Shown piece by piece: positions 14,176 to 27,778 of a DNA stretch of 28,260 nucleotides. This DNA is from an uncultured Bacteroidales bacterium (lineage in GTDB: Bacteria > Bacteroidota > Bacteroidia > Bacteroidales > Lentimicrobiaceae), in assembly GCA_937864935.1 (NCBI GenBank), contig CALMDN010000321.1:1-28260 (forward strand), given 5' to 3'. Each line of letters opens with the position of its first letter. Position 1 is the stretch's first letter. Both the position numbers and the translations under genes were made by a program. The notes below the pieces were generated by a model. The model saw nothing but the letters and a program-made list of their open reading frames with translations, was not told the origin of the DNA and searched no databases.

Positions 14176-15735
14176 TTATAAAGGTAAATTTGAATGTTTC
14201 TTCGGAGGATTCACATCCTTTTTGGTGGCCAGTGCCTGAAATGCCCTGATTACCCTGAACCGGGTGTTGCGAGGTTCAATCACATCATCAATGTAACCAT
14301 ATTTGGCTGCATTGTAAGGATTGGCAAATTTATCCTTGTATTCATCCTCACTCTCACGGATAAACTCTTCTTTCTCCTCAGGACTTGTAAACTCAGACAG
14401 TTTCTTGTTATGCAGCACCTCAATGGCACCCTTGGGCCCCATAACCGCGATTTCAGCTCCCGGCCATGCATAATTAATATCCCCGCGCAGGTGCTTGGAG
14501 CTCATTACACAATAGGCACCGCCATAGGCTTTGCGCAGCACTACCGTAACTTTCGGCACAGTGGCTTCACCATAGGCATACAGAAGTTTCGCTCCGTGAA
14601 TGATGATTCCTCCGTATTCCTGAGCAGTTCCCGGCAAAAAGCCCGGAACATCCACCAGGGTCAGGATCGGAATATTGAAAGCATCGCAGAACCGCACGAA
14701 ACGGGCAGCTTTGCGCGAAGCATTGATGTCGAGCACTCCGGCCAGGTAATTGGGCTGATTGGCCACAATACCTACCGACATCCCATTGAAACGCGCATAG
14801 CCCGTTACAATATTCGGAGCATAGTGCCGCTGTATTTCAAGAAACTCACCGCAATCCACGATTGAATGAATCACATCCTTGACATCGTAGGGTTTGTTCG
14901 GGTTGTCGGGGATGATATAGTTCAAGGAATCTTCAAGCCTGTCGATGGGGTCGGGGCAAGTTGCCAGTGGTGGCTCTTCCAGGTTATTCTGCGGAAGGAA
15001 ACTGAGCAGTTTCCGTATCAGTGCAATCCCTTCTTTTTCATCATCGGCTACAAAGTGGCTGATTCCTGATTTGGTTCCATGTACCATGGCACCTCCCAGT
15101 TCCTCCTCAGTCACCACTTCACCGGTAACCGTTTTTACCACTTTGGGGCCGGTAACAAACATATTGCTTGTTCCTTTGCTCATGACGATAAAATCGGTAA
15201 GTGCCGGAGAATAAACAGCTCCCCCTGCACAGGGACCAAAAATGGCCGAAATCTGGGGAATTACCCCGGAAGCAAGAATGTTGCGTTCAAAGATTTCGGC
15301 ATAGCCTGCCAGACTGTTAACCCCTTCCTGTATCCTGGCACCTCCGGAGTCGTTGATCCCAATCACCGGAGCTCCAACCTTCATGGCCTGGTCCATGACT
15401 TTGCAGATTTTGTTGGCGAAGGTTTCAGACAGCGATCCTCCGAAAACAGTAAAGTCCTGTGAAAAGACATATACCACCCTTCCGTCGATGGTGCCATGTC
15501 CGGTCACTACCCCATCAGAGAGAAACTCCTGTTTTTCAATCCCGAAATTGGTACAGCGGTGGGTGACAAACATGTCGAACTCTTCAAAACTGCCCTCATC
15601 CAGAAGCAATTCTATCCTTTCGCGTGCAGTAAGTTTACCTTTGGCGTGCTGTGCATCAATCCTTTTCTGGCCGCCACCCAGTTTGGCCTGTTCCCGCTTG
15701 TCGAGAAGTCCCTTGATTTTGTCTTCAAAAGCCAT
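14176..15735 (-). CDS. mmdA: Methylmalonyl-CoA decarboxylase alpha / acyl-CoA carboxyltransferase subunit
   Basis: 519-residue biotin-dependent carboxyltransferase that moves the carboxyl of (S)-methylmalonyl-CoA to biotin, releasing propionyl-CoA. The two crotonase-like halves carry the oxyanion-hole motifs: [19 protein letters not shown] and [18 protein letters not shown] in the N-half, and [24 protein letters not shown] and [17 protein letters not shown] in the C-half. The C-terminus [23 protein letters not shown] is typical. Length and motifs are shared with the propionyl-CoA carboxylase beta chain. The operon with a Na+-pump beta subunit and epimerase supports the decarboxylase direction. 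It starts 77 nt after mce, and the ATG at 15735 ([17 protein letters not shown]) is the family start. No separate promoter box is seen before it. Confidence 0.93.
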
Positions 15736-15812
15736 TTAGCATTTAATTTAGCGCGAAAAACCCGAAAAATCAGAGTTTCCAGTTGTTTTCCGCAGTGATT
15801 ATCTGGTGTGAT

Positions 15813-16223
15813 TTACTTGTTTTTATTCTCACAGAATTCCGTCAAAACTCCAAAGGTGGATTTCGGATGAAGAAAGGCAATGTGCAATCCTTCAGCTCCT
15901 GCCCTTGGTTTCTGATCAATCAGTTGGATTCCCTTTTCCGCCGTTTCACTCAGTGCCTCTTCAAGATTCTCGACTGCAAAAGCCAGGTGATGGATTCCCT
16001 CACCTTTCTTTTCGATGAATTTCCCGATCGGACCCTCAGGGTCGGTTGACTCAAGCAATTCTATTTTGGTTTGCCCAACCATAAAAAAGGCGGTCTTAAC
16101 CCGCTGATCTTTAACTTCTTCTACGGCATAGCACTTTAGTCCGAGTACATTTTCGTAGTAAGGAATACTCTCCTCCAGACTCCTGACTGCAATGCCAATG
16201 TGTTCAATATGTGTAGGTTTCAT
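15813..16223 (-). CDS. mce: Methylmalonyl-CoA epimerase
   Basis: 136-residue vicinal-oxygen-chelate fold enzyme that interconverts (R)- and (S)-methylmalonyl-CoA, linking the B12-dependent mutase to the decarboxylase encoded next. The metal ligands are readable: His8 in IEHIGIAV, Gln51 in VGQTKIELLE, His79 in GEGIHHLAFAVE, and Glu129 in GVLTEFCE. The length is typical. The start at 16223 (MKPTHIEHIG) places the first ligand at the expected position; an ATG at 16337 would add 38 unlikely residues and lie upstream of the -7 box at 16240-16247. It is the first gene of the decarboxylase operon. The mutase genes are not in the window. Confidence 0.95.
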   Translation of the reverse strand: MKPTHIEHIGIAVRSLEESIPYYENVLGLKCYAVEEVKDQRVKTAFFMVGQTKIELLESTDPEGPIGKFIEKKGEGIHHLAFAVENLEEALSETAEKGIQLIDQKPRAGAEGLHIAFLHPKSTFGVLTEFCENKNK

Positions 16224-16239
16224 AGCTTTAAATTTCCGG

Positions 16240-16247
16240 CAAAAGTA
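16240..16247 (-). promoter_or_regulatory. Bacteroidota -7 box for the mce-mmd operon
   Basis: The reverse strand reads TACTTTTG, a perfect TAnnTTTG match, with 16 nt between the box and the mce ATG. It is the natural promoter for the five-gene operon. A perfect inverted repeat ATATATAG-aa-CTATATAT lies about 90 nt further upstream (16338-16355). Confidence 0.5.
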
Positions 16248-16410
16248 TATACTAATTTGGTTACGGGGAAGCATTTCAGACAATTTATAATGCCGTTTAC
16301 AATAAATAATGATTCTAATTAAGCTTTTGAAATTCAAATATATAGAACTATATATGTTACATAGATTATACTTAATGTTTCCTCCCTGCTACGGCAACCA
16401 TTCTCATTGT

Positions 16411-16495: not shown

Positions 16496-18817
16496 TCAGA
16501 AGCCGATACTGATCACGATTTCTGCCCTGACCGGTTTACCGTTTCTGGTGGCCGGTTTCCAGGCAGGCATGGCCCTGGTTATCCGGATGGCTTCTTCATC
16601 ACAGCCAAAGCCCAGCGATCTCATTACCCTGATGCCTCCGATCTTACCGTCTTCCCCAATGGTAATCTTCAGCACTACTTTTCCTTTAATCCCGTTGCGT
16701 TTAGCAGATTCGGGCATCACCAGCTTTTCTTTCAGGTATTTCTTCAGGGCGGCTTCGCCTCCCGGAAATTCCGGTGAAGAGCTGTTCTCTGTCAGCAAGA
16801 CCTCTTCCTGGTAAACCTGTTCCATGTCCATATTTGTTTCGCGGCATTCCACGGGCGATGATGGTGAAATTATCCCCATAATCCTTTTCCCGGGCATACT
16901 GCTTCCGATGGCCAGGTTGCTCACCCCTTCGGGCAAGGGCAGCGGCTGGTTCACCGTTACATATCCTCCCTGATTGTTGCGCTTACTGCTGTCGATGGCT
17001 ACAAAAGAAGTATAGGCGGTAAGCAGGTTGTGGCTGATTCCCAGCTGGGTGACCCTTTCCCTGAGATTGTCCGGGACTCCGTTAAAATCGCCCTGATAGT
17101 CATCCAGCATGCGGATCTGTTCCCTGGCCCATAAATAACGGATGGCTTTATTGTCAGCTGAAGTTGTTGCATCTGACAAATCAAGCGCCCGGGTGTATGG
17201 TCCGGTACCATTGCTGCCCTTCAGCACAATGCTTCCCTGCGCTTTTCCGCGGAACTTCCCGGTAATCATCACCGGCCGCGACTGAAACACATCCGGTACG
17301 GCTGAAGGCTGTACATCAAAGGCATCAAAGTTTTGAAAATCAATTTCTATTCCGGTAAGTACCGGCGTACTGATGTATTTTCTGAACGTTGAAGCAATTT
17401 CTCCGGCCTCTTTCTCGCCGGTAACCACGAATGCTTCTCCTGACCCTGCCCGCGCAATGCCTTCAATCAGGTAGCGGTTTACAGAACTTCCTATTCCGAA
17501 AGCGAAAAAGCTCGCTTCTCCAAGACTAGAGCGAATGAGTGAGAAAGCTTCTTTCTCCACGGTGACATACCCATCGGTTGCAACCACGAAGGTGCGTGCA
17601 AAATCATCGCTGACTTCTAGCGATAGCGCCCTTTGGAGTGCCGGAAGGAGCTCTGTGCCACCACCTCCGCTCTGGGAACTAAGCATATTCATTGCCCTGG
17701 CGATGTTCTCGGGGCTGGCCTGTACCGAGCTCTCAGAAAGCAGGTTGCTTCCACCCGCAAAAAACAGAATGTTAAAACGGTCGGTCCTCTTCAGCCCGCT
17801 GAGCAAATCTGAAATCAGCTTTTTTGACACCTCAAGCGGAAATCCGTACATCGATCCGGAAACATCCACGATGAATATGTACTCTCTGGGCGGAATCAGT
17901 TCAGGCTTCACCACGTCGGGTGGCTGTATGCAGGCAAGAAAGTAATTCTCCTTTCCGTCGTTGTATAGCCAGACTCCCGATTCAATGCGGTTTCCGCCCA
18001 GGGTATAATGAAGAATGAAATCCCGGTTTCCACCGGAGGTTTCAGATTTGCCGAGAGATACAGATGCCGTATTTTTATCAATGAACTCTGTATTGATCTG
18101 GTGTGAGGTGCTCCGGATATTTTTTACCGGGATCCCGGATGAGATGTTGCAGCGGAGCTCAAAGGTGTATGCAGGCAATTCACCTTCATTTGTGTAAGGG
18201 TTCTGTGTCCAGCCCTCTGCTGGCCTGCCGGTATCTGTTTTCCCGGTATACCGCGGTCCGACAACAGCCGGAAAAACAAATTCATAGCGACCCTCTGATG
18301 GCTGCAGGGTTTCTGTATACTGCAGTTCAACCTCAATGCGATCGCCCGGCAGTATATTTCCCACGCTCATCTGAAAAACATTCGGCCTGTGCTGTTCAAG
18401 CAGGCTGGCTGTCTGGCCCTGCTGAACTGCCTGGGTGTACTCCTGCCTGGCTTTGTTGCGTTCTTCGATTTTCGCAACAACAACCCTTTCGCCAACCGTC
18501 ATTTTCAAGGCATGAACCGCTGCCCTGGTGGAACCCGGGAATACATAGACCGCCTCAATGGGTTTACTGCCACGGTTCCGGTAAACCTGCTTTACGGTTA
18601 CATGGGCAATAATGCCGGCAATATCCACTTCGGAAACAACTGACAAAAGCGGAAATGATTCAGCATCGGTATTTTCAGGGAGTATAAAGCAGGGCGCCCC
18701 CGGCTTTTCAGCAGTCTGGGCCATTCCTGATGGATGAAGGGAAAACAGAAACATCAATAAATTACTGATAATAAATAAACAGTAAGGATGTAAGCGAAAG
18801 AAGCTGGTTGGTTTCAT
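16496..18817 (-). CDS. Secreted VIT-VWA protein with C-terminal TonB_C domain
   Basis: 773-residue exported protein. Residues 1-34 are a signal peptide ending in GMAQ. A VIT domain covers about 50-175 (VDIAGIIAHVTVKQVYRN, EAVYVFPGSTRAAV, SVGNILPGDRIEVELQY). A von Willebrand A domain covers about 310-490, with the MIDAS elements DVSGS (318-322), a GGGTEL loop and VATDGYV. After a linker, a TonB C-terminal domain covers about 675-773 (SSPEFPGGEAALKKYLKEKL, GIKGKVVLKITIGEDGKIG, GFGCDEEAIRITRAMPAWKP). The ATG at 18817 gives a clean signal peptide; an upstream in-frame ATG at 18904 does not. It lies 162 nt downstream of tonB on the same strand. VIT-VWA proteins bind other proteins through metal; the partner here is unknown. 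The TonB_C tail without a membrane anchor is unusual. Confidence 0.9.
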   Translation of the reverse strand: MKPTSFFRLHPYCLFIISNLLMFLFSLHPSGMAQTAEKPGAPCFILPENTDAESFPLLSVVSEVDIAGIIAHVTVKQVYRNRGSKPIEAVYVFPGSTRAAVHALKMTVGERVVVAKIEERNKARQEYTQAVQQGQTASLLEQHRPNVFQMSVGNILPGDRIEVELQYTETLQPSEGRYEFVFPAVVGPRYTGKTDTGRPAEGWTQNPYTNEGELPAYTFELRCNISSGIPVKNIRSTSHQINTEFIDKNTASVSLGKSETSGGNRDFILHYTLGGNRIESGVWLYNDGKENYFLACIQPPDVVKPELIPPREYIFIVDVSGSMYGFPLEVSKKLISDLLSGLKRTDRFNILFFAGGSNLLSESSVQASPENIARAMNMLSSQSGGGGTELLPALQRALSLEVSDDFARTFVVATDGYVTVEKEAFSLIRSSLGEASFFAFGIGSSVNRYLIEGIARAGSGEAFVVTGEKEAGEIASTFRKYISTPVLTGIEIDFQNFDAFDVQPSAVPDVFQSRPVMITGKFRGKAQGSIVLKGSNGTGPYTRALDLSDATTSADNKAIRYLWAREQIRMLDDYQGDFNGVPDNLRERVTQLGISHNLLTAYTSFVAIDSSKRNNQGGYVTVNQPLPLPEGVSNLAIGSSMPGKRIMGIISPSSPVECRETNMDMEQVYQEEVLLTENSSSPEFPGGEAALKKYLKEKLVMPESAKRNGIKGKVVLKITIGEDGKIGGIRVMRSLGFGCDEEAIRITRAMPAWKPATRNGKPVRAEIVISIGF

Positions 18818-18918
18818 GGTGAGTTTGTTTTGAGTTGATGATGATGGTTGGTTCAGTAAGGCACACGGAGGGTGGACCTGCAAAAGGTTATGGCTGATAT
18901 TCAAAACTTTAAGAGTTC

Positions 18919-18940
18919 TTAACCTGAGATTACAGGTTAA
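18919..18940. promoter_or_regulatory. Perfect inverted repeat upstream of the VIT-VWA gene
   Basis: TTAACCTG and CAGGTTAA are perfect 8-nt inverted repeats with a 6-nt spacer (agatta), lying between the tonB stop and the VIT-VWA start. No T-run follows on either strand, so a protein-binding operator is more likely than a terminator. AAGTTTTG on the reverse strand (18902-18909), one mismatch from TAnnTTTG, lies just downstream. Confidence 0.4.
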
Positions 18941-18979
18941 TGAAAATGGGAAGAAAACTAGTTAAATACGGAGGAAAAT

Positions 18980-19660
18980 TTATCCGACCAGGGTGAAGCG
19001 TACCGGCAAGCTGAGTCTGACCCTGACGGGTTTTCCCCTTTGTTTGCCCGGATTCCATTTGGGCATCTGAGAAATTACCCTTACGGCTTCTTCGGTACAA
19101 CCGCCGGCCAGTTCCCTCTGCACGGTAACTGTAGATATGCTGCCATCTGCTTCCACAACAAAGCCAATGTACACTACGCCACTGATTCCGGCCTCCCTGG
19201 CCTGAACAGGATAATCAATGTTCCGGCGAAGGTAGTCGAATAACGCGGATTCCCCACCTGGGAATGACGGCATTTCTTGAGCAATGTAAAGAATTTCAGG
19301 ATCTGAGTTGTCGGGAACTTCCTCTGTATATTTAGGCAAAACATAGGGTTCCAGTTTCTCATCCAGGCCTATTTCAGTTATAATATCGATCTCAGGAAAA
19401 TCGTCGGTAGAAGTATCAACGATTTTAAGCAGGGTAACATTCTGAGGTTTGGGAGGCTCCGGTTTTTTCATGGGAACGATCTCAATGAAATCAGTTTCGG
19501 GTTCAATCCCTCCTGAATCAGGAAAAACAACCGGATTTCCGTAAGGAGTTCTCCATTCAAAAGCAACCAGCGCAAGGCTGATCGCGATGATTAATCCTGT
19601 CTGCAGGAAGAAGGTGCGTTTCTTTTCCAGATCGGCTTTGGGTGATTTGCGTGTTTCCAT
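18980..19660 (-). CDS. tonB: Energy transducer TonB
   Basis: 226-residue inner-membrane protein. A short basic cytoplasmic start (METRKSPKADLEKKR) precedes one membrane helix at about 17-34 (FLQTGLIIAISLALVAF). A short proline-rich stretch, KKPEPPKPQ, lies near 65-73, and the TonB C-terminal domain covers about 128-226 (MPSFPGGESALFDYLRR, GVVYIGFVVEADGSIS, MPKWNPGKQRGKPVRVRL). TonB transmits proton-motive-force energy from ExbBD to outer-membrane TonB-dependent transporters. No exbB, exbD or receptor gene is in the window. Its C-terminal domain matches that of the anti-sigma-like protein at 20503-21759 at about 56 of 97 positions in my ungapped by-eye alignment. It is transcribed away from the sigma factor gene, across a 241-nt intergenic region. 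Confidence 0.9.
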   Translation of the reverse strand: METRKSPKADLEKKRTFFLQTGLIIAISLALVAFEWRTPYGNPVVFPDSGGIEPETDFIEIVPMKKPEPPKPQNVTLLKIVDTSTDDFPEIDIITEIGLDEKLEPYVLPKYTEEVPDNSDPEILYIAQEMPSFPGGESALFDYLRRNIDYPVQAREAGISGVVYIGFVVEADGSISTVTVQRELAGGCTEEAVRVISQMPKWNPGKQRGKPVRVRLSLPVRFTLVG

Positions 19661-19901
19661 GGCTTTTGGTTTTAAAATGAAACTTTATATTGAAGATGCA
19701 GGGATGATCACATTTCCATAAAGCACAGGCGAAAAATCTGTCAAAGAATGCAAGGCTCCGGTGTTATCGGCTTGCTGATGAAATACATTATGCAGAATCA
19801 GCAAAGGATTGACGGCACAAAGAAGCTCCTGTAGAAATTACGCCCATCGTGCAGAAATATTGTATTTTAGTGCAGGTTTGAATAAAACTATTCCATCGCT
19901 G

Positions 19902-20501
19902 ATGTTTATCCCTGCACCTGAAGAAAAACATTTCGATCGTCTTTCCGATGAAGAACTGGCCGGTTTGTTCAGGCAGTCTGGGAATCAGGAGATTATCGGC
20001 GAACTTTTTTCAAGGTATTCACCGCTGGTTCTGGGGGTTTGTTATAAATACCTCAACGAACGCGAGACAGCCCGGGATACAGCCATGGGTGTTTTTGAGA
20101 GCCTTTTCAGCACGTTGAAGAAGTATGAAGTCAGCAATTTCAGGTCGTGGTTACTCACTGTTACCAAGAGCCATTGTGCACAGGTGCTGCGTAAACAGAA
20201 AAAGGAGTCTGCCGGCCTTCTGACAAGTGCGGATTTTATCTCTGAGGTTATGGAAAATCGTGATTTTCTGCATCCTTCTGATGAGAATGAATCGACAAGA
20301 CACCTTGAAAAACTGGATGAATTGCTAGGGAAACTACCACCCGGACAACAGCAATGCCTGCTGATGTTTTACTTTGAAAACAGATCGTATCAGCAGATCA
20401 GTGAGGCGACAGGGCACAGCCTGAATGAAGTTAAAAGTCACATTCAGAACGGAAAACGAAATCTGAAGATCAATCTGGAAAGATATTTTGCCGACAGTTA
20501 A
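19902..20501 (+). CDS. ECF-type sigma-70 family sigma factor
   Basis: 199-residue alternative sigma factor. Region 2 covers about 19-85 (LFRQSGNQEIIGELFSRYSP, then VFESLFSTLKKYEVSNFRSW with a region 2.3/2.4-like WLLTVTKSHCAQVLRK). Region 4 covers about 130-190 (LDELLGKLPPGQQQCLLMFY, then the helix-turn-helix YQQISEATGHSLNEVKSHIQ). Regions 1 and 3 are missing, as in ECF factors. The start at 19902 (MFIPAPEEKHF) precedes the conserved LSDEELAGLFR; an upstream ATG at 19809 would add 31 residues. TATTTTAG at 19863-19870 is one mismatch from the -7 box. The downstream gene starts one nucleotide after its stop, so the two proteins are translated together, as usual for a sigma/anti-sigma pair. Confidence 0.9.
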   Translation: MFIPAPEEKHFDRLSDEELAGLFRQSGNQEIIGELFSRYSPLVLGVCYKYLNERETARDTAMGVFESLFSTLKKYEVSNFRSWLLTVTKSHCAQVLRKQKKESAGLLTSADFISEVMENRDFLHPSDENESTRHLEKLDELLGKLPPGQQQCLLMFYFENRSYQQISEATGHSLNEVKSHIQNGKRNLKINLERYFADS

Positions 20502-20502
20502 G

Positions 20503-21759
20503 ATGGAACATCAGAAACAAAATACGCTGTTTACACCATCGGGGTGTTTTACCGGAGATACTCTTTTGCGGTATGGAAACGGTTTGCTTTCCCCCGGTGA
20601 AAAAAGTCTGGCTGACGCTCATCTGGACCACTGTGAACTATGTTCACTTGCACTGGAGGGGCTTCTGGTTTCTGATAGGAATGCCTTTTCTGAAGATGTT
20701 GATTGGCTGAACCAGCAATTTTTATCCGATGATTCCGGTCTTGAAATGTCGGATGCTGGTGATGCTGATACTGCCAGATCTGTCAGAGGATTTGAAGGGC
20801 CACGATTCCCCCGGTTGAGCCCCGGAGAAATGGAGGAATTTACCCGAAGAATCAAAAAGCAGGCTGAAAAACAGGAAAAAGATCGTCGTGCAGCATCTGC
20901 TGGTCAAACTAATGCAGGAAAAAATGGCAAGCGCAGTTTTCTTTCAGGGAAATATGCCCTGATTGCAGCCGGTATCCTGGTGTTGCTGACCATAGGAGGC
21001 ATTCAGTTTTACCTGTCACGCCTTGGTAAGGAAAATCTGAACCCTCAGACAGCTGATCAAACCGGGACGGAAACATCTGCAGATACCCGGGCATTCGTAC
21101 CTGTACCCCATCAACAATCAGGCGAACAAAGGGTGGAAGAGTCGCTGAAAGCCAAACCGATTCAATCCGGTAAACCACCATCAGTGACAGTGCTTCATGA
21201 GATGGACCTGGAAATCGTGAATGATGAATCCATCGGGAAGGCTGCTGCCCAGACAGAAACAATAACAGACAAAAAAGAACAAACAGTAGCAGCTCCGGCC
21301 GAAACTTTACCGGTTAACGTAAATTCTTATGATAAGGAAGAAACCAATGCTTTTGTTGATGGTATATCGGTAGTTTCAAGTCGTGAAGCTGTCAGCCGGA
21401 AACGCAGCAGTGCTGAATCAATAGAAGAAGAGGTGGAAGCAGATATTTTTACCGTTGTGGAAGAATCTCCACAGTACCCCGGAGGGGAGGAGGCCAGGCA
21501 AAAATTTCTGGCTGAAAATCTTAACTACCCTCAGGCAGCCAGGGAAGCTTCCATACAGGGAACCGTATACGTTGCTTTTACTGTTGAGAAAGATGGAAGT
21601 ATCACTGAACCAGCTATTTTAAGGGGAATCGGAGCGGGATGTGATGAAGAGGCTTTGCGGGTAATAAAGAAAATGCCACCCTGGACACCGGGAAAGCAGC
21701 GGGGTAAAGCAGTAAGGGTCAGGCTTACCTTACCCGTAAAATTTACACTGGCAGGATAG
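20503..21759 (+). CDS. Anti-sigma-like membrane protein with TonB_C periplasmic domain
   Basis: 418-residue protein. The N-terminus resembles a zinc-finger anti-sigma domain (zf-HC2 type): Cys15, then His40-x3-Cys44-x2-Cys47 in AHLDHCELC. A charged cytoplasmic linker covers about 95-148 and one membrane helix about 150-172 (KYALIAAGILVLLTIGGIQF). A long acidic and polar periplasmic linker runs to about 315, and a TonB C-terminal domain covers 316-418 (SPQYPGGEEARQKFLAENL, MPPWTPGKQRGKAVRVRL). The ATG at 20503 follows the sigma-factor TAA by one nucleotide; an upstream in-frame TTG/GTG start is less likely. In the usual FecI-FecR pair the periplasmic part is a FecR domain, so TonB_C here suggests a different sensor. 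Anti-sigma activity is inferred from the zinc finger and position; it has not been shown. Confidence 0.85.
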   Translation: MEHQKQNTLFTPSGCFTGDTLLRYGNGLLSPGEKSLADAHLDHCELCSLALEGLLVSDRNAFSEDVDWLNQQFLSDDSGLEMSDAGDADTARSVRGFEGPRFPRLSPGEMEEFTRRIKKQAEKQEKDRRAASAGQTNAGKNGKRSFLSGKYALIAAGILVLLTIGGIQFYLSRLGKENLNPQTADQTGTETSADTRAFVPVPHQQSGEQRVEESLKAKPIQSGKPPSVTVLHEMDLEIVNDESIGKAAAQTETITDKKEQTVAAPAETLPVNVNSYDKEETNAFVDGISVVSSREAVSRKRSSAESIEEEVEADIFTVVEESPQYPGGEEARQKFLAENLNYPQAAREASIQGTVYVAFTVEKDGSITEPAILRGIGAGCDEEALRVIKKMPPWTPGKQRGKAVRVRLTLPVKFTLAG

Positions 21760-21928
21760 TTGCTGAAGTTTATTATAAAGTTCTTAAGCTCCATATATTT
21801 ACTTTGCAGGGCTTTTTCAGGGGTTAAAGCAGTTTAAATGAGTACGGATTGTTAAATTTAAGTTAAGAAACCTTCAACGTGAGTTTCATTTTTTTGTGTT
21901 CACTGATTAAAGAATAAGATAATTGCCG

Positions 21929-23728
21929 ATGAGATTAAACAACTTCACCATGATGCTGATCACCGCCGGGCTGGTGATGCACGTCTGCTTTTCTTCTGCA
22001 CAAACAATTTCCACCACCATCGGAAGTGATTCATCCAGATATAGCCTGGAGTTTGTGAAAGATGATTTCATCGCTGCGTCGCTCGACAGTCTGGCCAACC
22101 TGAAGTATTTCGATGGCTATGACTGTGCATCAGCCAGTGAAATTGAGAATATCTTTGGATTTTCAGCCGGATTTGTTCCGGTTTATGCAGATTCTGTTTA
22201 TTACAACAGAATTAAAAAACTCAGGGCACAGTCTTCAATCAATCTAACATATAACCAGTATGTTAAAGATTATATTGAGCTGTATGCGGTTAAAAAGCGT
22301 GGGCTTACTGAGCGGGTTATGGGTCTGGCCCAGATTTATTTTCCGCTTTTCGAGGAGCAGCTCGACCGCTTCAATATGCCCCTTGAGTTAAAGTATCTGG
22401 CCATCGTTGAATCGGCCCTGAATCCTGTTGCCAAATCTCCGGTCGGTGCTTCAGGTTTATGGCAGTTTATGTATGGCACAGGGAAAGCCTACAACCTGAA
22501 TGTTACTTCGCTGGTTGACGACCGCCGTGATCCGATCAAATCGACCATCGCTGCCTGTCAGCACATGAACGATCTGTATAAAATGTACCACGACTGGCTG
22601 CTGGTGCTGGCAGCATACAATTCCGGAGCAGGAAATGTCAACAAAGCCATCCGCAGGTCAGGCGGAAAAATGGATTTCTGGCAGATCAGGCCTTTTCTGC
22701 CCCTGGAAACCCGTGGATATGTCCCCGCATTTATAGCTGTCAATTATGTGATGAGTTATGCTGCCGAGCACAACCTGCGGCCGGTTCAGCCAAGATTTTA
22801 TCATTATGAAATAGATACAGTTTTGGTTAAAGACGTGCTATCATTCAGCCAGATCTCCACCATGCTGAACCTTCCCATCGAGGAGATACAGTTTCTCAAT
22901 CCATCTTTCAAAAGCGGTGTTATTCCGGCAACCAAAGGAAACCACTATGCATTGAGACTGCAGAAGAAGAATATCCCTGATTTTGTCAACAACGAAGCAC
23001 AATTGTATGCCTTCAGGGCTCAGTCTGAAAATGAAAAAGAGCAACTGCTCAGCATGATGAAATCTGTAACCCAGGCTGAGTATCACAAAGTCCGCAAAGG
23101 TGAAACCCTCGCTTCTGTTGCGAAAAAATACCGATGCTCAACCAGTGAACTGAAGCGCTGGAACCGATTAAAATCAACCCGTCTGAAGGCCGGACAACGC
23201 CTGATTGTAAGACCGGAAAGCACCATGCCGGTTCAACTGGCAAACAAAGTTGAGAAAGCAGATTCAACCACTGTTGCGAAAGCAGAAACCTCCAAAGAAA
23301 CAGTAAAGCCTGTTTCCGGTAATGAAGACAATAAACCCGCATCTTCAACCCGGGTCGAAAATAAATATCACAAAGTTAAACCGGGTGAATCGCTCGGAAA
23401 AATTGCCGATAAATACAACACTTCACTGGCCAACCTGAAAAAGTGGAATAAAATCAAAGGTACAACCATTCATCCGGGGGATAAACTGATTGTCGGAAAA
23501 ACTGAAATTACAGAGCAACTGGCTGAAGCTAAAGTAGAAAATACCCCGAAAACCAAAGCTGGCAATAACCTGGATTTTATTTATTACACGGTAAGACAAG
23601 GGGATACGCTTTGGAAAATAGCCCAGAAACACAACAGCGATGTTGAAGAAATTAAGAAACTAAACAATATTTCAAACGAAAAATCGATCAAACCCGGACA
23701 GAAGATAAAGGTGGGGGTTGTCTCCTGA
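21929..23728 (+). CDS. mltD: Membrane-bound lytic transglycosylase (MltD-like) with three LysM domains
   Basis: 599-residue exported peptidoglycan-cleaving enzyme. The signal peptide ends near CFSSAQ (about residue 25). The SLT/GEWL-type domain covers about 147-255: LKYLAIVESALNPVAKSPVG contains the catalytic Glu161, followed by GLWQFMYGTGKAYNL and WLLVLAAYNSGAGNV. A linker region covers about 260-380. Three LysM repeats lie at about 384-428 (HKVRKGETLASVAKKYRCST), 479-522 (HKVKPGESLGKIADKYNTSL) and 551-598 (YTVRQGDTLWKIAQKHNSDV), which bind glycan chains. It would cut the glycan backbone to form 1,6-anhydro ends during growth or recycling. The ATG at 21929 is preferred over a TTG two codons upstream. 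No lipobox is evident, so the membrane-bound label is by family only. An intrinsic terminator follows. Confidence 0.93.
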   Translation: MRLNNFTMMLITAGLVMHVCFSSAQTISTTIGSDSSRYSLEFVKDDFIAASLDSLANLKYFDGYDCASASEIENIFGFSAGFVPVYADSVYYNRIKKLRAQSSINLTYNQYVKDYIELYAVKKRGLTERVMGLAQIYFPLFEEQLDRFNMPLELKYLAIVESALNPVAKSPVGASGLWQFMYGTGKAYNLNVTSLVDDRRDPIKSTIAACQHMNDLYKMYHDWLLVLAAYNSGAGNVNKAIRRSGGKMDFWQIRPFLPLETRGYVPAFIAVNYVMSYAAEHNLRPVQPRFYHYEIDTVLVKDVLSFSQISTMLNLPIEEIQFLNPSFKSGVIPATKGNHYALRLQKKNIPDFVNNEAQLYAFRAQSENEKEQLLSMMKSVTQAEYHKVRKGETLASVAKKYRCSTSELKRWNRLKSTRLKAGQRLIVRPESTMPVQLANKVEKADSTTVAKAETSKETVKPVSGNEDNKPASSTRVENKYHKVKPGESLGKIADKYNTSLANLKKWNKIKGTTIHPGDKLIVGKTEITEQLAEAKVENTPKTKAGNNLDFIYYTVRQGDTLWKIAQKHNSDVEEIKKLNNISNEKSIKPGQKIKVGVVS

Positions 23729-23756
23729 TTCTAACTGAATTGTATTAGGAAAGAAT

Positions 23757-23788
23757 AAGCCGGTACGCAATGCTGCCGGCTTTTTTTT
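23757..23788 (+). terminator. Intrinsic terminator after the transglycosylase gene
   Basis: Stem AAGCCGG / CCGGCTT (23757-23763, 23776-23782) with a 12-nt loop, continuing into eight T residues (23781-23788). It lies 28 nt past the stop codon. Confidence 0.88.
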
Positions 23789-23818
23789 ATGTTTTCTTTC
23801 TGTATACTAAAGAAGCAA

Positions 23819-23826
23819 TATCTTTG
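23819..23826 (+). promoter_or_regulatory. Bacteroidota -7 box for the DUF4837 gene
   Basis: TATCTTTG is a perfect TAnnTTTG match ending 26 nt before the ATG at 23853. Upstream, around 23796-23800, CTTTC is only a partial -33 match. Confidence 0.5.
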
Positions 23827-23852
23827 TTATTGATAAATAACCGACAAGCCAC

Positions 23853-24860
23853 ATGAAAGCATCACTGAAATTCCCGGGTATGAGTTTGCTAAGCCTGGCT
23901 ATTCTGCTTTTTCTTTCTTCATGCAACGAAGAATCCAGATCCACCAAAGCAGAATCCACAGGCAAACCTTCTGAAATTCTGGTAGTTACGAGCAAGCCAC
24001 TCTGGAAGAGTTCAGCAGGTGATTCGGTCAGGTCCTTTTTCAGCGGTCCTGCGGTTGGTCTGCCTCAACCCGAACCCCTGTATAAACTGGCTCAGGTAGA
24101 AATCGACGAGTTTAACAGGATATTGCAACCCCACCGGAACATTTTCATTATTGAAATTGATAGCAGCATCTCGGTACCACAGATTGAAATGAGGCGCGAT
24201 GTATGGGCTGCACCACAACGGGTCGTAAAAATTACAGGTGCTTCTATTGAGGGAATAAAGAGTATTTTCGAACAGAAAAAATACGAAATCCTGAATCTTT
24301 ATGACAATGCAGAAATCGAAAGACAGCAGAGCCTATATTCCAAATCATTAAATATCAAAGCGATTGAACTGGTTAAGAAGAAGTTCAATCTGAAAATAAA
24401 TATTCCCGCAGACTATTACGTGGCTGTTGACAAAGACAATTTTCTGTGGATCAGAAGGGAAGCGAATAAACTCAGTCAGGGACTCATCCTCTATTCCTAT
24501 CCTTATACAGACACAAACGCTTTTAACAGGAATAAGATAAAAGCGGTAAGAAACCAGTTTACAGAACTGTTTGTCCCAGGTCCCAGCGATAGCTCCTACA
24601 TGATTGTGGCTGATGAATTTATCCAACCAGTGAGCCGGAGTATTAAACTAAAAGATGAACTGGCGGTTGAAACCAGGGGATTGTGGGAAGTCAGAAAAGA
24701 TTTCATGGGTGGTCCCTATATCAGTTACACCTTTGTTGACAGAAAAAACAACATGGTTGTTACCCTCGACGGGTATGTATATGCCCCCAACGAAGACAAA
24801 AGGGATCTGCTCAAACAGGTTCAGGCAGTCCTGCTTTCGTTCGAATTTATTGAAAAATAG
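23853..24860 (+). CDS. DUF4837-family lipoprotein
   Basis: 335-residue predicted lipoprotein whose signal peptide ends in FLSSC (Cys24), followed by the acidic run NEES. The mature part opens with GKPSEILVVTSKPLWKSSAG and ends with FMGGPYISYTFVDRKNNMVV and YVYAPNEDKRDLLKQVQAVL, matching the DUF4837 pattern common in Bacteroidota. No catalytic motif is recognisable and the function is unknown; the family is often found as a single chromosomal gene. It has its own promoter box and a terminator on each side, so it is likely monocistronic. The ATG at 23853 gives the full signal peptide. Surface or periplasmic lipoprotein localisation is inferred. Confidence 0.85.
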   Translation: MKASLKFPGMSLLSLAILLFLSSCNEESRSTKAESTGKPSEILVVTSKPLWKSSAGDSVRSFFSGPAVGLPQPEPLYKLAQVEIDEFNRILQPHRNIFIIEIDSSISVPQIEMRRDVWAAPQRVVKITGASIEGIKSIFEQKKYEILNLYDNAEIERQQSLYSKSLNIKAIELVKKKFNLKINIPADYYVAVDKDNFLWIRREANKLSQGLILYSYPYTDTNAFNRNKIKAVRNQFTELFVPGPSDSSYMIVADEFIQPVSRSIKLKDELAVETRGLWEVRKDFMGGPYISYTFVDRKNNMVVTLDGYVYAPNEDKRDLLKQVQAVLLSFEFIEK

Positions 24861-24868
24861 GTGTTTAT

Positions 24869-24915
24869 AAGCACAATGAATTTTTTTTCAAAAAACTTGC
24901 ATTGTGCTTTTTTTT
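24869..24915 (+). terminator. Intrinsic terminator after the DUF4837 gene
   Basis: Perfect 10-bp stem AAGCACAATG / CATTGTGCTT (24869-24878, 24900-24909) closing a 21-nt A/T-rich loop, followed by a T-run to 24915. The right arm borders the -33 element of the next promoter. Confidence 0.85.
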
Positions 24916-24927
24916 GTTCTACTTTTG
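24897..24927 (+). promoter_or_regulatory. Promoter of the tetR-tolC-hlyD operon
   Basis: TTG at 24897-24899 and a perfect -7 box TACTTTTG at 24920-24927 are 20 nt apart, within the 19-21 nt spacing of Bacteroidota primary promoters. This is the best two-part promoter in the window. The -33 element overlaps the end of the preceding terminator hairpin loop, so the two units share this short stretch. Confidence 0.65.
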
Positions 24928-24934
24928 ACCACCT

Positions 24935-24956
24935 GGTTAAACTATTTGATTAAACC
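24935..24956. promoter_or_regulatory. Candidate TetR-family operator
   Basis: Imperfect palindrome GGTTAAA-N8-TTAAACC, with six of seven positions symmetric per arm, spans the expected transcription start just after the -7 box and lies 17 nt before the tetR ATG. Its position and 22-bp size fit autorepression by the TetR-type protein. A partial direct repeat, ATTTG(A)TTAAA, recurs at about 24945-24975. Confidence 0.5.
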
Positions 24957-24973
24957 ACATAGTTATTTGTTAA

Positions 24974-25585
24974 ATGACTGATTCTGATAAAAATACAGAA
25001 AAAACGATTCTTCTTTCAGCCCGGAAGATTTTCACCATTAAGGGGTTTGACGGAGCAAGGATGCAGGAAATTGCCGATGATGCGGGCATCAATAAGGCAT
25101 TGCTGCACTATTACTACCGGACGAAAGACAAGCTTTTTGAAGCTGTTTTCAAAGAAGTACTCAACCTGATCTTCCCGAAAATAATATCTATTCTACAATC
25201 ACCCATCCCGGTATTTGAAAAAATTGAGAAAATCAGCCTGACCTATATTGAGATGTTGAAACAAAATCCCGATCTGGCCATTTTCGTTTTCCATGAGATC
25301 AGCCGCAACCCCAGGCGTTTGGTCGAGAATTTCAGAAATGCCGGGATCGATTTTGAAATTATCAGAAGCCAGATATCCCTTGAAGCTGCCCGGGGGATTA
25401 TTGTTCCAATTAAAGCTGAACACCTGATTACCAACCTGATCAGTATGTGTGTATTCCCGTTTATCGCCAAACCAGTGCTTAAAGGAATGATGGGAATGGA
25501 TGAAGAAGCTTTTCAGCAATTTATTGAAGAAAGAAAATCGGTAATACCGCATACCCTGATCTTATCCTTAACACCCGACAAATGA
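24974..25585 (+). CDS. TetR/AcrR-family transcriptional regulator
   Basis: 203-residue repressor-type regulator. The N-terminal helix-turn-helix covers about 10-58: TILLSARKIFTIKGFDGARM, then IADDAGINKALLHYYYRTKD with the recognition helix in ALLHYYY, then KLFEAVFKEVL. The remaining helical domain would bind a ligand and form a dimer; its ligand cannot be read. It is the first gene of an efflux operon: the stop overlaps the tolC-like ATG in the sequence ATGA (4-nt overlap), implying coupled translation. Autorepression, relieved by a compound exported by the pump, is inferred from the operator-like palindrome at the promoter. It resembles the regulators placed before YbhG/HlyD-type efflux genes. 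Confidence 0.92.
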   Translation: MTDSDKNTEKTILLSARKIFTIKGFDGARMQEIADDAGINKALLHYYYRTKDKLFEAVFKEVLNLIFPKIISILQSPIPVFEKIEKISLTYIEMLKQNPDLAIFVFHEISRNPRRLVENFRNAGIDFEIIRSQISLEAARGIIVPIKAEHLITNLISMCVFPFIAKPVLKGMMGMDEEAFQQFIEERKSVIPHTLILSLTPDK

Positions 25586-26859
25586 AAGCAATGAAAAAAG
25601 GACTGGTCTGGCTGGTTTTATTCACCAGCACTGCAAGCGCTCAGGTTTCCGGTCCGCTCACACTCGATACATGCTATAAGCGTGCACAGGCCAATCACCC
25701 TTTGAGCAGACAAGCTCCTCTTTTTGAAGAAAGCACCCGGATGCAGGAATCGGTATTGTCATCCAACTATCTGCCCCAGGTATCCATAGGCGGACAAGTC
25801 AGCTGGCAATCCGATGTTACCGCTCTGCCCATCTCCATTCCCAATGTCAGTATCCCTTCTCTGGATAAAGACAGTTACAAAGTGAATCTCGATGTTAACC
25901 AATTGATCTGGGATGGTGGAATGATCTCCAGGCAAAAGGAGCTTGAAGAAGCCGGACTCCTGGTCAATCTGCAGACTGTGGAAATAGAAAACCATCGCCT
26001 GCGCGAAACAGTGAATCAGGTGTTCTTCACCATCCTGATCTATCAGGAAAGGGAAAAGCTACTCAGGCTCAGCATGTCTGAACTTCAGTCCAAGCTTCGA
26101 AAGATCCGTTCGGGAGTCGCCAATGGTACTGTTCTGCAGTCCAATGCTGATGTACTGGATGCCGAAATCATACACATAGAACAATCGCTTACAGAACTGG
26201 TGCACAGCAAGGCATCTGCCATCTATAAGCTGGGTGAATTGACCGGTACAAGTTTCAGTAACAACATTGAACTGGAGATTCCGGTTACCGACAGCCTGCC
26301 GCCAATGCTTACCGACTTAAGGCCTGAATACCGCTTGTTTGAGCTTCAGCAGGAAAAATTCGGCGTCCAGAAATCAATGACCGGGATCAGAATGCTGCCC
26401 CGGATATCCGCATTCGGTACAGTGGGCTACGGTAAACCCGGTTTAAACATGTTGTCAAATCAATTTGATGGTTTTGCCATGGTGGGAGCCCGTTTCTCAT
26501 GGACAATCTGGAACTGGAGTCAGCGCAGGAAAGAAACCAGGATTATAGAAATTCAGCAGGAAATTATAGAAACACAAAAGCAGAACTTTGAGAAAAACCA
26601 GCGTATCCTGCTGAACAGTCTGAAACAGGACATCCTCAAAACCGAAAATATGATTGCTGCTGACTTCAGAATTGTCAGTCTCCGTGATGCAGTAGAGAAG
26701 TCTGCAGCAGCCTTGCTTGATCAGGGAATGATTACTTCAACGGAATACCTGACTGAAAAGAACCAGCAGACACAGGCTCAGCTGAACCTGCAGCTTCATA
26801 AGATTCAGCTTCAGTTGGCCCGCATCAATTATATCACAGCATCAGGCATGTTAAAATAA
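25582..26859 (+). CDS. TolC-family outer-membrane efflux protein
   Basis: 425-residue exported protein with a short signal peptide (MKKGLVWLVLFTSTASAQ). It has the TolC/OEP organisation of two repeats, each with long amphipathic alpha-helical stretches (for example KLLRLSMSELQSKLRKIRSG and QEIIETQKQNFEKNQRILLN) and beta-rich porin strands such as GMISRQKELEEAGLLVNLQT preceded by LNVNQLIWDGG-type segments. It would trimerise to form the outer-membrane channel for the adaptor encoded next. The ATG at 25582 overlaps the tetR stop; an in-frame ATG at 25591 gives an equally good signal peptide. The adaptor gene follows after 28 nt. Substrate unknown. Confidence 0.9.
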   Translation: MKAMKKGLVWLVLFTSTASAQVSGPLTLDTCYKRAQANHPLSRQAPLFEESTRMQESVLSSNYLPQVSIGGQVSWQSDVTALPISIPNVSIPSLDKDSYKVNLDVNQLIWDGGMISRQKELEEAGLLVNLQTVEIENHRLRETVNQVFFTILIYQEREKLLRLSMSELQSKLRKIRSGVANGTVLQSNADVLDAEIIHIEQSLTELVHSKASAIYKLGELTGTSFSNNIELEIPVTDSLPPMLTDLRPEYRLFELQQEKFGVQKSMTGIRMLPRISAFGTVGYGKPGLNMLSNQFDGFAMVGARFSWTIWNWSQRRKETRIIEIQQEIIETQKQNFEKNQRILLNSLKQDILKTENMIAADFRIVSLRDAVEKSAAALLDQGMITSTEYLTEKNQQTQAQLNLQLHKIQLQLARINYITASGMLK

Positions 26860-26887
26860 TCCGGAAACAAAGAAAAACGTCAATCCA

Positions 26888-27778
26888 ATGAACACTTTCA
26901 AAACAATAATAATTCTGACAATGACCTCTTTACTGATGGGATCGTGTAAAAACAACCAAACAGTTTCTGATGCTTACGGGAATTTCGAAGCCGAAGAAAC
27001 TACAATTTCGAGCGAAGCCAACGGACGAATCATCTGGCTGGATGTTTCCGAAGGCCAGTTGCTGAAGAAAGGAGATACCATTGGGTTAATCGATACCACC
27101 GACCTCCATTACAGATTGCTCCAGCTGCAGTCGCAGAAGACAGCAATTCAGAGCAGGACTGCCGGGATACATGCCCAGGCTGCAGTTTATCAGCAACAGA
27201 AAGCCAACCTGAACAACGACCTGCAGAGGATTGAAAACCTGTTGAAAGCACAGGCAGCTACACCAAAACAGCTGGATGATATCACCGGATCTATCAGGGT
27301 GATTGATCAGCAGATTCTCAGCGTAAAAACACAGCTGGAGTCTGTTTCAGATGAGATAAAGGTGGTTGAAGCCCAGATTTCACAGGCTAAGGAAAACCTG
27401 AAACGATGCTATATAGTCAATCCGGTCGAAGGCTCAGTGCTGTCGAGTTTTGCTGAGGCCGGAGAGGTTACTGCTTTTGGAAAGCCGCTTTATAAAATTG
27501 CGGATCTCAGCACCATGGAGCTCCGGGTTTATGTGAGCGGTGATATGCTATCGTCCATTAAAACCGGTCAGAAAGCAAGGGTTTTCATCGACAATCAGGA
27601 GGGGCTGGAAGAACTGACAGGCTCTGTAACCTGGGTCTCCCCTTCAGCAGAATTCACTCCAAAAATCATTCAGACCCGGGAGGAAAGGGTCAACCTGGTT
27701 TATGCAGTAAAACTGCGTGTGGTGAACGATGGCAGACTCAAAATAGCGATGCCGGCTGAAGTTATTTTCGTCAAATGA
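26888..27778 (+). CDS. HlyD/YbhG-like efflux periplasmic adaptor lipoprotein
   Basis: 296-residue membrane-fusion protein. A lipobox MGSC (Cys20) suggests lipid anchoring in the inner membrane. The first lipoyl/barrel-sandwich half is TTISSEANGRIIWLDVSEGQ and KKGDTIGLID. A long coiled coil covers about 80-178 (LQLQSQKTAIQSRTAGIHAQ through EAQISQAKENLKR). The second half YIVNPVEGSVLSSFAEAGEV and a beta-barrel LRVYVSGDMLSSIKTGQKAR follow. It would link an inner-membrane pump to the TolC-like channel. ABC-type or RND-type pumps use such adaptors; the pump itself is not in the window, because the next gene is a DUF2147 protein. Operon with tetR and tolC is clear. Confidence 0.9.
   Translation: MNTFKTIIILTMTSLLMGSCKNNQTVSDAYGNFEAEETTISSEANGRIIWLDVSEGQLLKKGDTIGLIDTTDLHYRLLQLQSQKTAIQSRTAGIHAQAAVYQQQKANLNNDLQRIENLLKAQAATPKQLDDITGSIRVIDQQILSVKTQLESVSDEIKVVEAQISQAKENLKRCYIVNPVEGSVLSSFAEAGEVTAFGKPLYKIADLSTMELRVYVSGDMLSSIKTGQKARVFIDNQEGLEELTGSVTWVSPSAEFTPKIIQTREERVNLVYAVKLRVVNDGRLKIAMPAEVIFVK

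Follow-up and report, generated by a model that had tools for sequence, protein, structure and literature searches.

A TonB-tailed anti-sigma factor facing tonB in Bacteroidales: a candidate sigma-dependent feedback circuit at the Ton system

Genes of the divergent locus

The DNA analysed here, a stretch of 28,260 nucleotides referred to as the window (contig CALMDN010000321.1, assembly GCA_937864935.1), comes from an uncultured Bacteroidales bacterium of the Lentimicrobiaceae, whose assembly (589 contigs, 3.0 Mb in total) has a completeness of 72.5%. At its centre, the genes for an extracytoplasmic function (ECF) sigma factor and a membrane anti-sigma factor ending in a TonB_C domain face the genes for TonB and for a VIT-VWA-TonB_C protein (Table 1). 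We interpret the system as an ECF sigma factor/zinc-finger anti-sigma factor pair, the sigma clade of which is spread across the genome's class, and we describe a promoter-like motif that precedes tonB and recurs within the sigma gene. Based on this motif, we propose that the sigma factor controls tonB as well as its own anti-sigma factor.

Table 1. Features of the divergent locus, in coordinates of the window
Feature	Position	Strand	Remarks
VIT-VWA-TonB_C protein	16496..18817	-	ATG 18817; Pfam VIT 122.4 bits, VWA_3 54.4, TonB_C 58.6; TonB_C ~16499-16789
TonB	18980..19660	-	Pfam TonB_C 61.2 bits; TonB_C ~18983-19273
ECF-type promoter-like motif, ATGGAAATGTGATCATCCCTGCATC	19695..19719	-	35 nt before tonB ATG; position and spacing kept in genus and order
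ECF sigma factor	19902..20501	+	ATG 19902 (open reading frame from TTG 19809); TIGR02937 88.4 bits, cut-off 42.9
Promoter-like motif copy in sigma gene, ATGGAAAATCGTGATTTTCTGCATC	20250..20274	+	228 nt before anti-sigma ATG; synonymous-codon tests
Anti-sigma factor	20503..21759	+	C-H-C-C zinc finger 20545-20643, membrane helix ~20959-21015, linker, TonB_C ~21439-21756
MltD-like lytic transglycosylase with LysM	21923..23728	+	Downstream of anti-sigma gene in genus

A reading made from the sequence alone had described three of four adjacent genes as ending in TonB_C and the fourth as an ECF sigma factor. Pfam TonB_C lies far above its cut-off in all three proteins, and a count confirmed the 56 of 97 agreeing positions that had been estimated by eye between the domains of TonB and the anti-sigma factor. 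The sigma factor contains only regions 2 and 4, both above the curated cut-offs (Sigma70_r2 38.6, cut-off 24; Sigma70_r4_2 53.8, cut-off 25.7). TonB has a single N-terminal membrane helix, as judged from a hydrophobic window, followed by a linker and TonB_C. The VIT-VWA protein begins, by eye, with a signal-peptide-like N-terminus that has no lipobox, and it scores 415.4 against the marine sortase target protein model TIGR03788, below the cut-off of 551.65. Its gene lies 162 nt from tonB with the exact motif absent between the two, which would probably form one operon.

Class I zinc anti-sigma (ZAS) factors bind their metal through a Cys or His followed by H-x3-C-x2-C. This ligand pattern is present in the window's anti-sigma factor, with C15, H40, C44 and C47 invariant in 61 aligned sequences, although Pfam zf-HC2 itself scores 15.3, below its cut-off of 22.2. 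Searches of the protein for FecR family domains (Pfam or NCBIfam, E 0.1) and for the M56 peptidase domain (PF05569) gave no match. The most conserved region of the anti-sigma factor is TonB_C, in which the mean frequency of the commonest residue is 0.73, compared with values of 0.56 in the zinc finger and 0.28 in the linker. In the AlphaFold2 model, residues 321-410 have predicted local distance difference test scores of 92-96 by blocks of ten, and both Foldseek and VIA-align matched the tail to TonB C-terminal domains, including those solved with FoxA, BtuB and FhuA. As modelled, the tail has the fold of a TonB C-terminal domain, which supports this part of the sequence-only reading.

Proteins combining M56 and TonB_C occur among the database relatives of the tail, and among 120 listed relatives of the anti-sigma factor, the three full-length ones with an organism name are from Lentimicrobium sp., which marks the source as Lentimicrobium-like within the Bacteroidales. 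Cognate TonB_C pairs were slightly more alike than non-cognate ones for anti-sigma factor and VIT-VWA protein (P 0.0095, n 10) and for anti-sigma factor and TonB (P 0.007, n 7), with P 0.12 (n 4) for VIT-VWA protein and TonB, composition being uncontrolled throughout; the cognate domain was the best match in only 1/10, 2/7 and 1/4 cases, respectively. A tree of 95 TonB_C domains was too short for its branching to be resolved. Tandem TonB_C domains, in 2-4 copies, are present in frames of 560-860 residues in several genomes of the same genus, and a single 741-residue frame at L042 (G000:C166:3763-4755) carries three.

Gene order in the genus and across Bacteroidales

Within the genus and family group, which comprises 19 genomes with the window's own included, the sigma and anti-sigma genes are followed by an MltD-like gene in 15 genomes, although in G002 the latter lies ~1.5 kb further on. 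The complete order including tonB and the VIT-VWA gene is found in 9 of the 19, the VIT-VWA frame being split in G005. The clade sigma factor was not found in G006, G013, G015 and G018, where the best sigma matches have E values of 9e-23 to 1.8e-16; at two loci from these genomes (L056 and L058, in G015 and G018), tonB stands directly before mltD, as if a loss of the sigma and anti-sigma genes had brought the two together. In G003 and G017 the TonB_C of the anti-sigma factor is weak and the VIT-VWA gene is missing. A strict co-occurrence of the VIT-VWA gene with an intact anti-sigma TonB_C was considered and rejected, as G002, G008 and G014 have the tail without a VIT-VWA match.

At the order level, a sigma match at E 1e-20 was obtained in 84 of 247 genomes, and 80 of the 95 listed places outside the window's own were combined with 14 loci of the genus to give 94 loci. 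Loci of the window's type (type I), in which a VIT-VWA-TonB_C gene, sometimes behind tonB, lies beside the genes for the sigma factor and an anti-sigma factor with zinc finger, membrane helix and TonB_C, number 20, of which 12 lie outside the genus in nine families; at a further locus, L080, the anti-sigma gene is cut by the end of the contig. With or without TonB, the neighbourhood is conserved, which supports the reading from the sequence alone. Among the 12, L074 has the VIT-VWA gene on the anti-sigma side, although a second locus in its family shows the facing arrangement, and L072 and L093 have a weak TonB_C in the anti-sigma factor. A separate search for loci related to that of the window gave two distant loci.

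In a sister type (type II), the sigma factor is faced by a VWA protein with CarbopepD_reg_2, vWF_A, VWA and YfbK_C domains (Pfam, four proteins). As a rule, its anti-sigma factors are of a non-zinc kind, with CarbopepD_reg_2, a weak TonB_C or both. A tail of this type was modelled for one protein and resembles TonB C-terminal domains, with a best Foldseek E value of 2.3e-3 (probability 1.00) and no match at or below 0.001. The idea that both partners carry matched domains held only in part and was set aside, since CarboxypepD was present in the anti-sigma factor at 4 of 13 YfbK-type loci with a domain-bearing anti-sigma factor. PMC12204202 describes the carboxypeptidase domain of receptors in Bacteroidetes as implicated in their interaction with TonB, and one might therefore speculate that type I and type II anti-sigma factors, through TonB_C and CarboxypepD, respectively, both touch the Ton system. 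At L157:2408-7279, a single frame of 1623 residues matches both CarboxypepD and VIT-VWA.

The remaining loci of this sigma clade mostly lack a VWA neighbour, and TPR matches were found in 4/4 scanned anti-sigma factors from loci lacking one. At L065, L079, L083 and L088, the clade sigma factor is paired with a TPR-tailed anti-sigma factor with no VWA gene within three genes, and the first three of these sigma genes contain the internal motif described below. Leaving out one row without an anti-sigma factor, a VWA gene lies within three genes of 33 of 53 anti-sigma factors with TonB_C or CarboxypepD, compared with 3 of 40 others, one of the three being the cut locus L080. VIT-VWA proteins matched at E 1e-40 in 35 of the 247 genomes, and in 16 such loci that were fetched no sigma gene lies beside the VIT-VWA gene.

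The flanks of the window (14176-16337, with MmdA-like and methylmalonyl-CoA epimerase genes, and 21923-27778, with MltD, DUF4837, TetR, efflux and HlyD-type genes) are syntenic in most of the same-genus loci read. On the downstream side, these genes code among others for a TetR regulator, an efflux protein of the outer membrane and a protein of the HlyD type. In another family, at L064, a glyoxalase/epimerase-like gene likewise follows the VIT-VWA gene. Scans of the window for Rfam families and tRNA genes gave no match.

A promoter-like motif before tonB and within the sigma gene

A pair of boxes, TGGAAW and GCATC, was first seen by eye at a fixed distance before tonB in intergenic regions of the genus; in the window the motif reads TTATGGAAW-N12-TGCATC. 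With looser boxes and a spacing of 13-17, it was found before the divergent gene in 10/13 regions from the genus and 23/29 from the order. The strict core TGGAAW-N13-GCATC, searched in upstream windows of equal length, is present in 29 of 41 targets (12 from the genus and 29 from the order), whereas the same boxes occur in 3/41 at N12, and no further spacing between 6 and 22 gave a match. Among 700 background upstream regions, 38 have the core at N13, of which 36 belong to loci whose sigma gene itself holds the core; one of the remaining two is the VIT-VWA locus L074, with the site 57 nt before the VIT-VWA gene. The extended consensus from 28 sites is tTTTATGGAAT-N12-TGCATCcT. Scored over 15 fixed positions, 12 of 14 upstream regions from sigma-bearing genomes have the tonB site 35-44 nt ahead of the start, the other two, from G003 and G017, having N12. 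The site is at chance level in 4/4 tonB upstream regions of G013, G015 and G018, although these tonB copies are perhaps not orthologous. Upstream of the sigma genes themselves, the motif is present in only 1 of 94 cases. We infer that the motif is the promoter recognised by the clade sigma factor, and tonB and the VIT-VWA gene, the latter already proposed as a target by the sequence-only reading, are likely to be transcribed from it, as judged by motif conservation rather than expression. At three VIT-VWA-TonB_C genes without an adjoining sigma gene (L143, L145 and L152), the motif is located 44-67 nt upstream.

Of 95 sigma genes, 45 also contain the core within their codons, in a constant reading frame and 233-305 nt ahead of the end of that gene's frame, with 40 of the 45 within 230-265. 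At this site 54 sigma genes encode the peptide [MV]E.....H, and the full DNA motif was observed in 42 of them, compared with 6.9 expected from codon usage and a highest value of 19 in 200,000 simulations. When each 60%-identity cluster is represented by a single gene, the peptide is present in 37 and the motif in 28 (4.8 expected). When third codon bases were scanned for bias given the amino acids (674 tests), the site accounted for ranks 1, 2, 3, 4 and 6 (z 8.5, 7.9, 7.4, 5.6 and 5.3). The search was extended to the class with a sigma protein alignment, which matched 158 of 295 genomes, and the 29 first-listed loci outside the window's own were taken as a second set; these belong to the same class, not the same order, and to 11 families, with seven loci from one genus. 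The exact motif is present in 28/29 (4.7 expected among the 28 with the peptide) and in 10/11 cluster representatives (2.0 expected among 10). In the column scan of this set, the top rank goes to the base before the motif (z 7.3) and the third to the G (z 5.3), while unrelated columns take ranks two, four and five.

The codon counts and column scans indicate selection on the DNA and not on the protein alone, acting on the same bases that make up the intergenic motif. A merely conserved peptide was dropped as an explanation after the codon tests on [MV]E.....H, including the check with 60%-identity clusters. A codon- or RNA-level constraint, acting through translation or mRNA structure and producing a promoter lookalike, would account for the single reading frame and for the position over a loosely conserved peptide, but it seems unlikely to us: the sigma gene keeps the bases that it has in common with the intergenic motif, with identical spacing, the GAA codon is used in 54/54 genes (39.7 expected) and CAT in 53/54 (37.4 expected), and the amino acid before the His varies, yet its codon ends in G in 44/54 (22 expected). 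Other sigma genes in the loci lack an embedded motif in 4/4 cases, which is a small sample. The embedded motif is most simply read as a putative sigma-dependent promoter for the anti-sigma gene.

In the window's genome, strict ATGGAAW-N12-TGCATC occurs at three sites, before tonB, inside the sigma gene and 77 nt before an alpha-2-macroglobulin-like gene, with 0 in the reversed control. This third site, the motif inside the sigma gene and the YfbK-like/CarboxypepD sister type all lay beyond the sequence-only reading. Two macroglobulin-like proteins were scanned and scored 62.0 and 49.4 for MG2 (cut-off 32.8) and 25.9 and 22.0 for A2M_BRD (cut-off 22.7). Eight relatives of the gene in the genus have the motif 50-137 nt upstream, although their number is no test as these loci were chosen from the list of motif matches; a ninth and a tenth locus fetched with them (L169 and L170) yielded nothing and were dropped. 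In another family (G188), the motif lies 31 nt before a macroglobulin-like gene. Possible extra targets are exported-protein-like genes at L176 and L200, with the motif 29 and 23 nt upstream, respectively, the latter gene having a CarboxypepD match to a local model. A genome-wide regulon count by the loose pattern was abandoned as too noisy, with matches also in genomes without the sigma factor.

A candidate circuit, its rivals and known systems

We propose the following circuit. The sigma gene might, on weak support, be transcribed by the housekeeping polymerase, and the sigma factor would then be held at the inner membrane by the zinc finger of the anti-sigma factor, as suggested by family and fold. 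The periplasmic TonB_C tail may dock where TonB docks, most simply on outer-membrane receptors through their exposed TonB boxes or N-terminal domains, and could in this way sense docking sites unserved by TonB, with docking leading to proteolysis or sigma release. The free sigma factor is predicted to recognise TTATGGAAW-N12-TGCATC and to direct transcription of tonB, of the soluble VIT-VWA-TonB_C protein and of the macroglobulin-like protein and, from the copy within the sigma coding sequence, of the anti-sigma gene alone. The additional TonB and soluble TonB_C would fill the docking sites and the additional anti-sigma factor would end the response, resulting in two nested negative feedbacks. 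The wiring, that is, the motif-linked sigma targets including tonB/VIT-VWA and the anti-sigma gene, we hold to be probable. The sensing of Ton occupancy by the TonB-fold tail is more tentative and, taken by itself, rather less probable than not. The explanation as a whole, in which the sigma factor drives TonB, the soluble TonB_C protein and its own anti-sigma factor under an occupancy-sensing tail, is the one we favour, with a confidence slightly on the positive side. Its most specific form, a Ton-demand sensor in which the anti-sigma TonB_C competes with TonB for receptors and the sigma factor makes TonB, a soluble VIT-VWA-TonB_C decoy, a macroglobulin-like protease trap and, from a promoter embedded in its own codons and conserved throughout a bacterial class, its own inhibitor, is possible but on balance doubtful. 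From the overall interpretation of the sequence-only reading, the conserved neighbourhood, the TonB fold of the tail and the likely sigma dependence of tonB-VIT-VWA, as indicated by the motif, have stood, and the sensing role of the tail, like the competitor role of the VIT-VWA protein, is tentative.

Several observations weigh against the proposed circuit. The tail is kept intact in G002, G008 and G014 without any VIT-VWA match, and the TPR-tailed anti-sigma factors share the embedded motif, which makes the latter independent of the TonB tail. VIT-VWA genes without a sigma neighbour have the motif in only 3/16 cases, and 8 of the 13 motif-less genes are in genomes with a listed sigma match. 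Before sigma genes, a TAnnTTTG box is found in 42/94 cases compared with 186/700 in the background and 2/41 among the targets, and it is not exact in the window. The genome G013, which is 96% complete and in which no clade sigma factor was found, keeps the macroglobulin motif, which counts against a strict link. Genomes lacking the clade sigma factor also contain 5-12 matches to the loose pattern (0-3 in the reversed control), and in the window's genome a spacer of 13 accounts for 11 of 102 loose matches over 21 spacers, ~2.4 times the mean of the others. Even strict matches in other genomes are intragenic and outside sigma genes at 20 of 30 loci (counting L187, a VWA gene whose frame is over-long) and at 11 of 19 sites of a further set. 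Due to these noisy counts and the many strict matches in unrelated coding sequence, the regulon rests on conserved position.

Three other explanations of the whole system were considered. The tail might serve as an envelope anchor, bound to peptidoglycan, to an outer-membrane protein or to another TonB_C, with the sigma factor responding to envelope damage or proteolysis and the VIT-VWA protein, the macroglobulin-like protein and MltD acting in envelope protection or repair. The MltD-like gene that follows the anti-sigma gene in the genus, the macroglobulin-like target and the TPR tails of relatives from the same sigma clade would all fit; however, in the window and at other loci the motif is followed first by tonB itself, and the stronger conservation of TonB_C than of the zinc finger is what a specific contact predicts, so that we see this explanation as a minority possibility. 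Alternatively, in surface signalling of the FecIRA type, the tail would bind one dedicated receptor and report its substrate and not general Ton occupancy. TonB_C indeed binds receptors in the solved complexes that resemble the model (6i97, 2gsk and 2grx), and anti-sigma signalling from receptors is established according to the parts of PMC9249621 that treat it. On the other hand, Pfam scans detected no TonB-dependent receptor among 23 window proteins, nor among 10 neighbours at five other type I loci, although a distant receptor gene is possible, and the motif predicts TonB, VWA and macroglobulin-like proteins as targets; we regard this explanation as rather unlikely. Finally, the genes might be adjacent by descent and share no circuit. 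TonB_C proteins are numerous in the genus and many VIT-VWA-TonB_C genes have no sigma gene, but the association in ten families (own included) and a motif at fixed spacing make this very improbable.

Bacteroidota rely on many TonB-dependent outer-membrane receptors, and how the scarce Ton machinery is matched to them is, to our knowledge, an open question. An anti-sigma factor with a TonB docking domain, paired with a sigma factor that seemingly drives tonB, would make this question testable in cultured relatives. In addition, a promoter-like element in sigma codons, kept in and outside one order, is a clear overlap of coding and regulatory constraint, and the motif provides a ready consensus for one ECF sigma clade. 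Neither a TonB_C-tailed anti-sigma factor nor this embedded promoter was found described in the open-licence literature searched, although the 2021 ECF classification may already list such a group. MecR1/BlaR1(M56)-TonB_C fusions, reportedly described by Chu, Peacock and Vogel in 2007, are similar in being membrane signalling proteins with a C-terminal TonB_C, and differ in having a metallopeptidase sensor in place of the zinc-finger anti-sigma factor.

Bacteroidota anti-sigma factors described earlier also reach towards the outer membrane; according to the description available they have domains from the outer membrane into the cytosol, whereas here the tail is globular and TonB-type. In Bacteroidota, only 6% of ECF sigma factors lie beside a class I anti-sigma domain according to a survey (PMC7406223), and the start-site data for F. 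psychrophilum give an ECF motif with a CGT box, unlike the present motif (PMC9723704). The vWA force transducers and YfbK-like vWA proteins are alike in that vWA/YfbK folds and the receptor carboxypeptidase domain are tied to Ton-type machinery; in the relevant passages they are proposed to be motor-driven membrane proteins (PMC12204202), while the VWA protein here looks exported and soluble and is encoded opposite the sigma factor. FecI-FecR-FecA likewise combines an ECF sigma factor with a membrane anti-sigma factor that has a Ton-linked periplasmic domain, and a surplus of the free signalling domain competes. As the signalling sections of the source describe it, FecR reads the signalling domain of a receptor (PMC9249621), whereas here the anti-sigma factor bears the TonB side and the window proteins scanned include no receptor.

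The feedback design itself is known from Corynebacterium glutamicum. In the passages on the sigH-rshA operon, which encodes a sigma factor and a zinc anti-sigma factor, primer extension and Northern blotting revealed housekeeping promoters for the sigma gene and an additional sigma-dependent promoter, with TGGAAGA in the -35 region, that serves the anti-sigma gene alone (PMC3489674). As given there, RshA has 89 residues and no TonB tail, and the rshA start sites lie 62 and 66 nt upstream, whereas in the present system the motif is located within codons ~230 nt upstream of the anti-sigma gene and is kept inside and outside the order.

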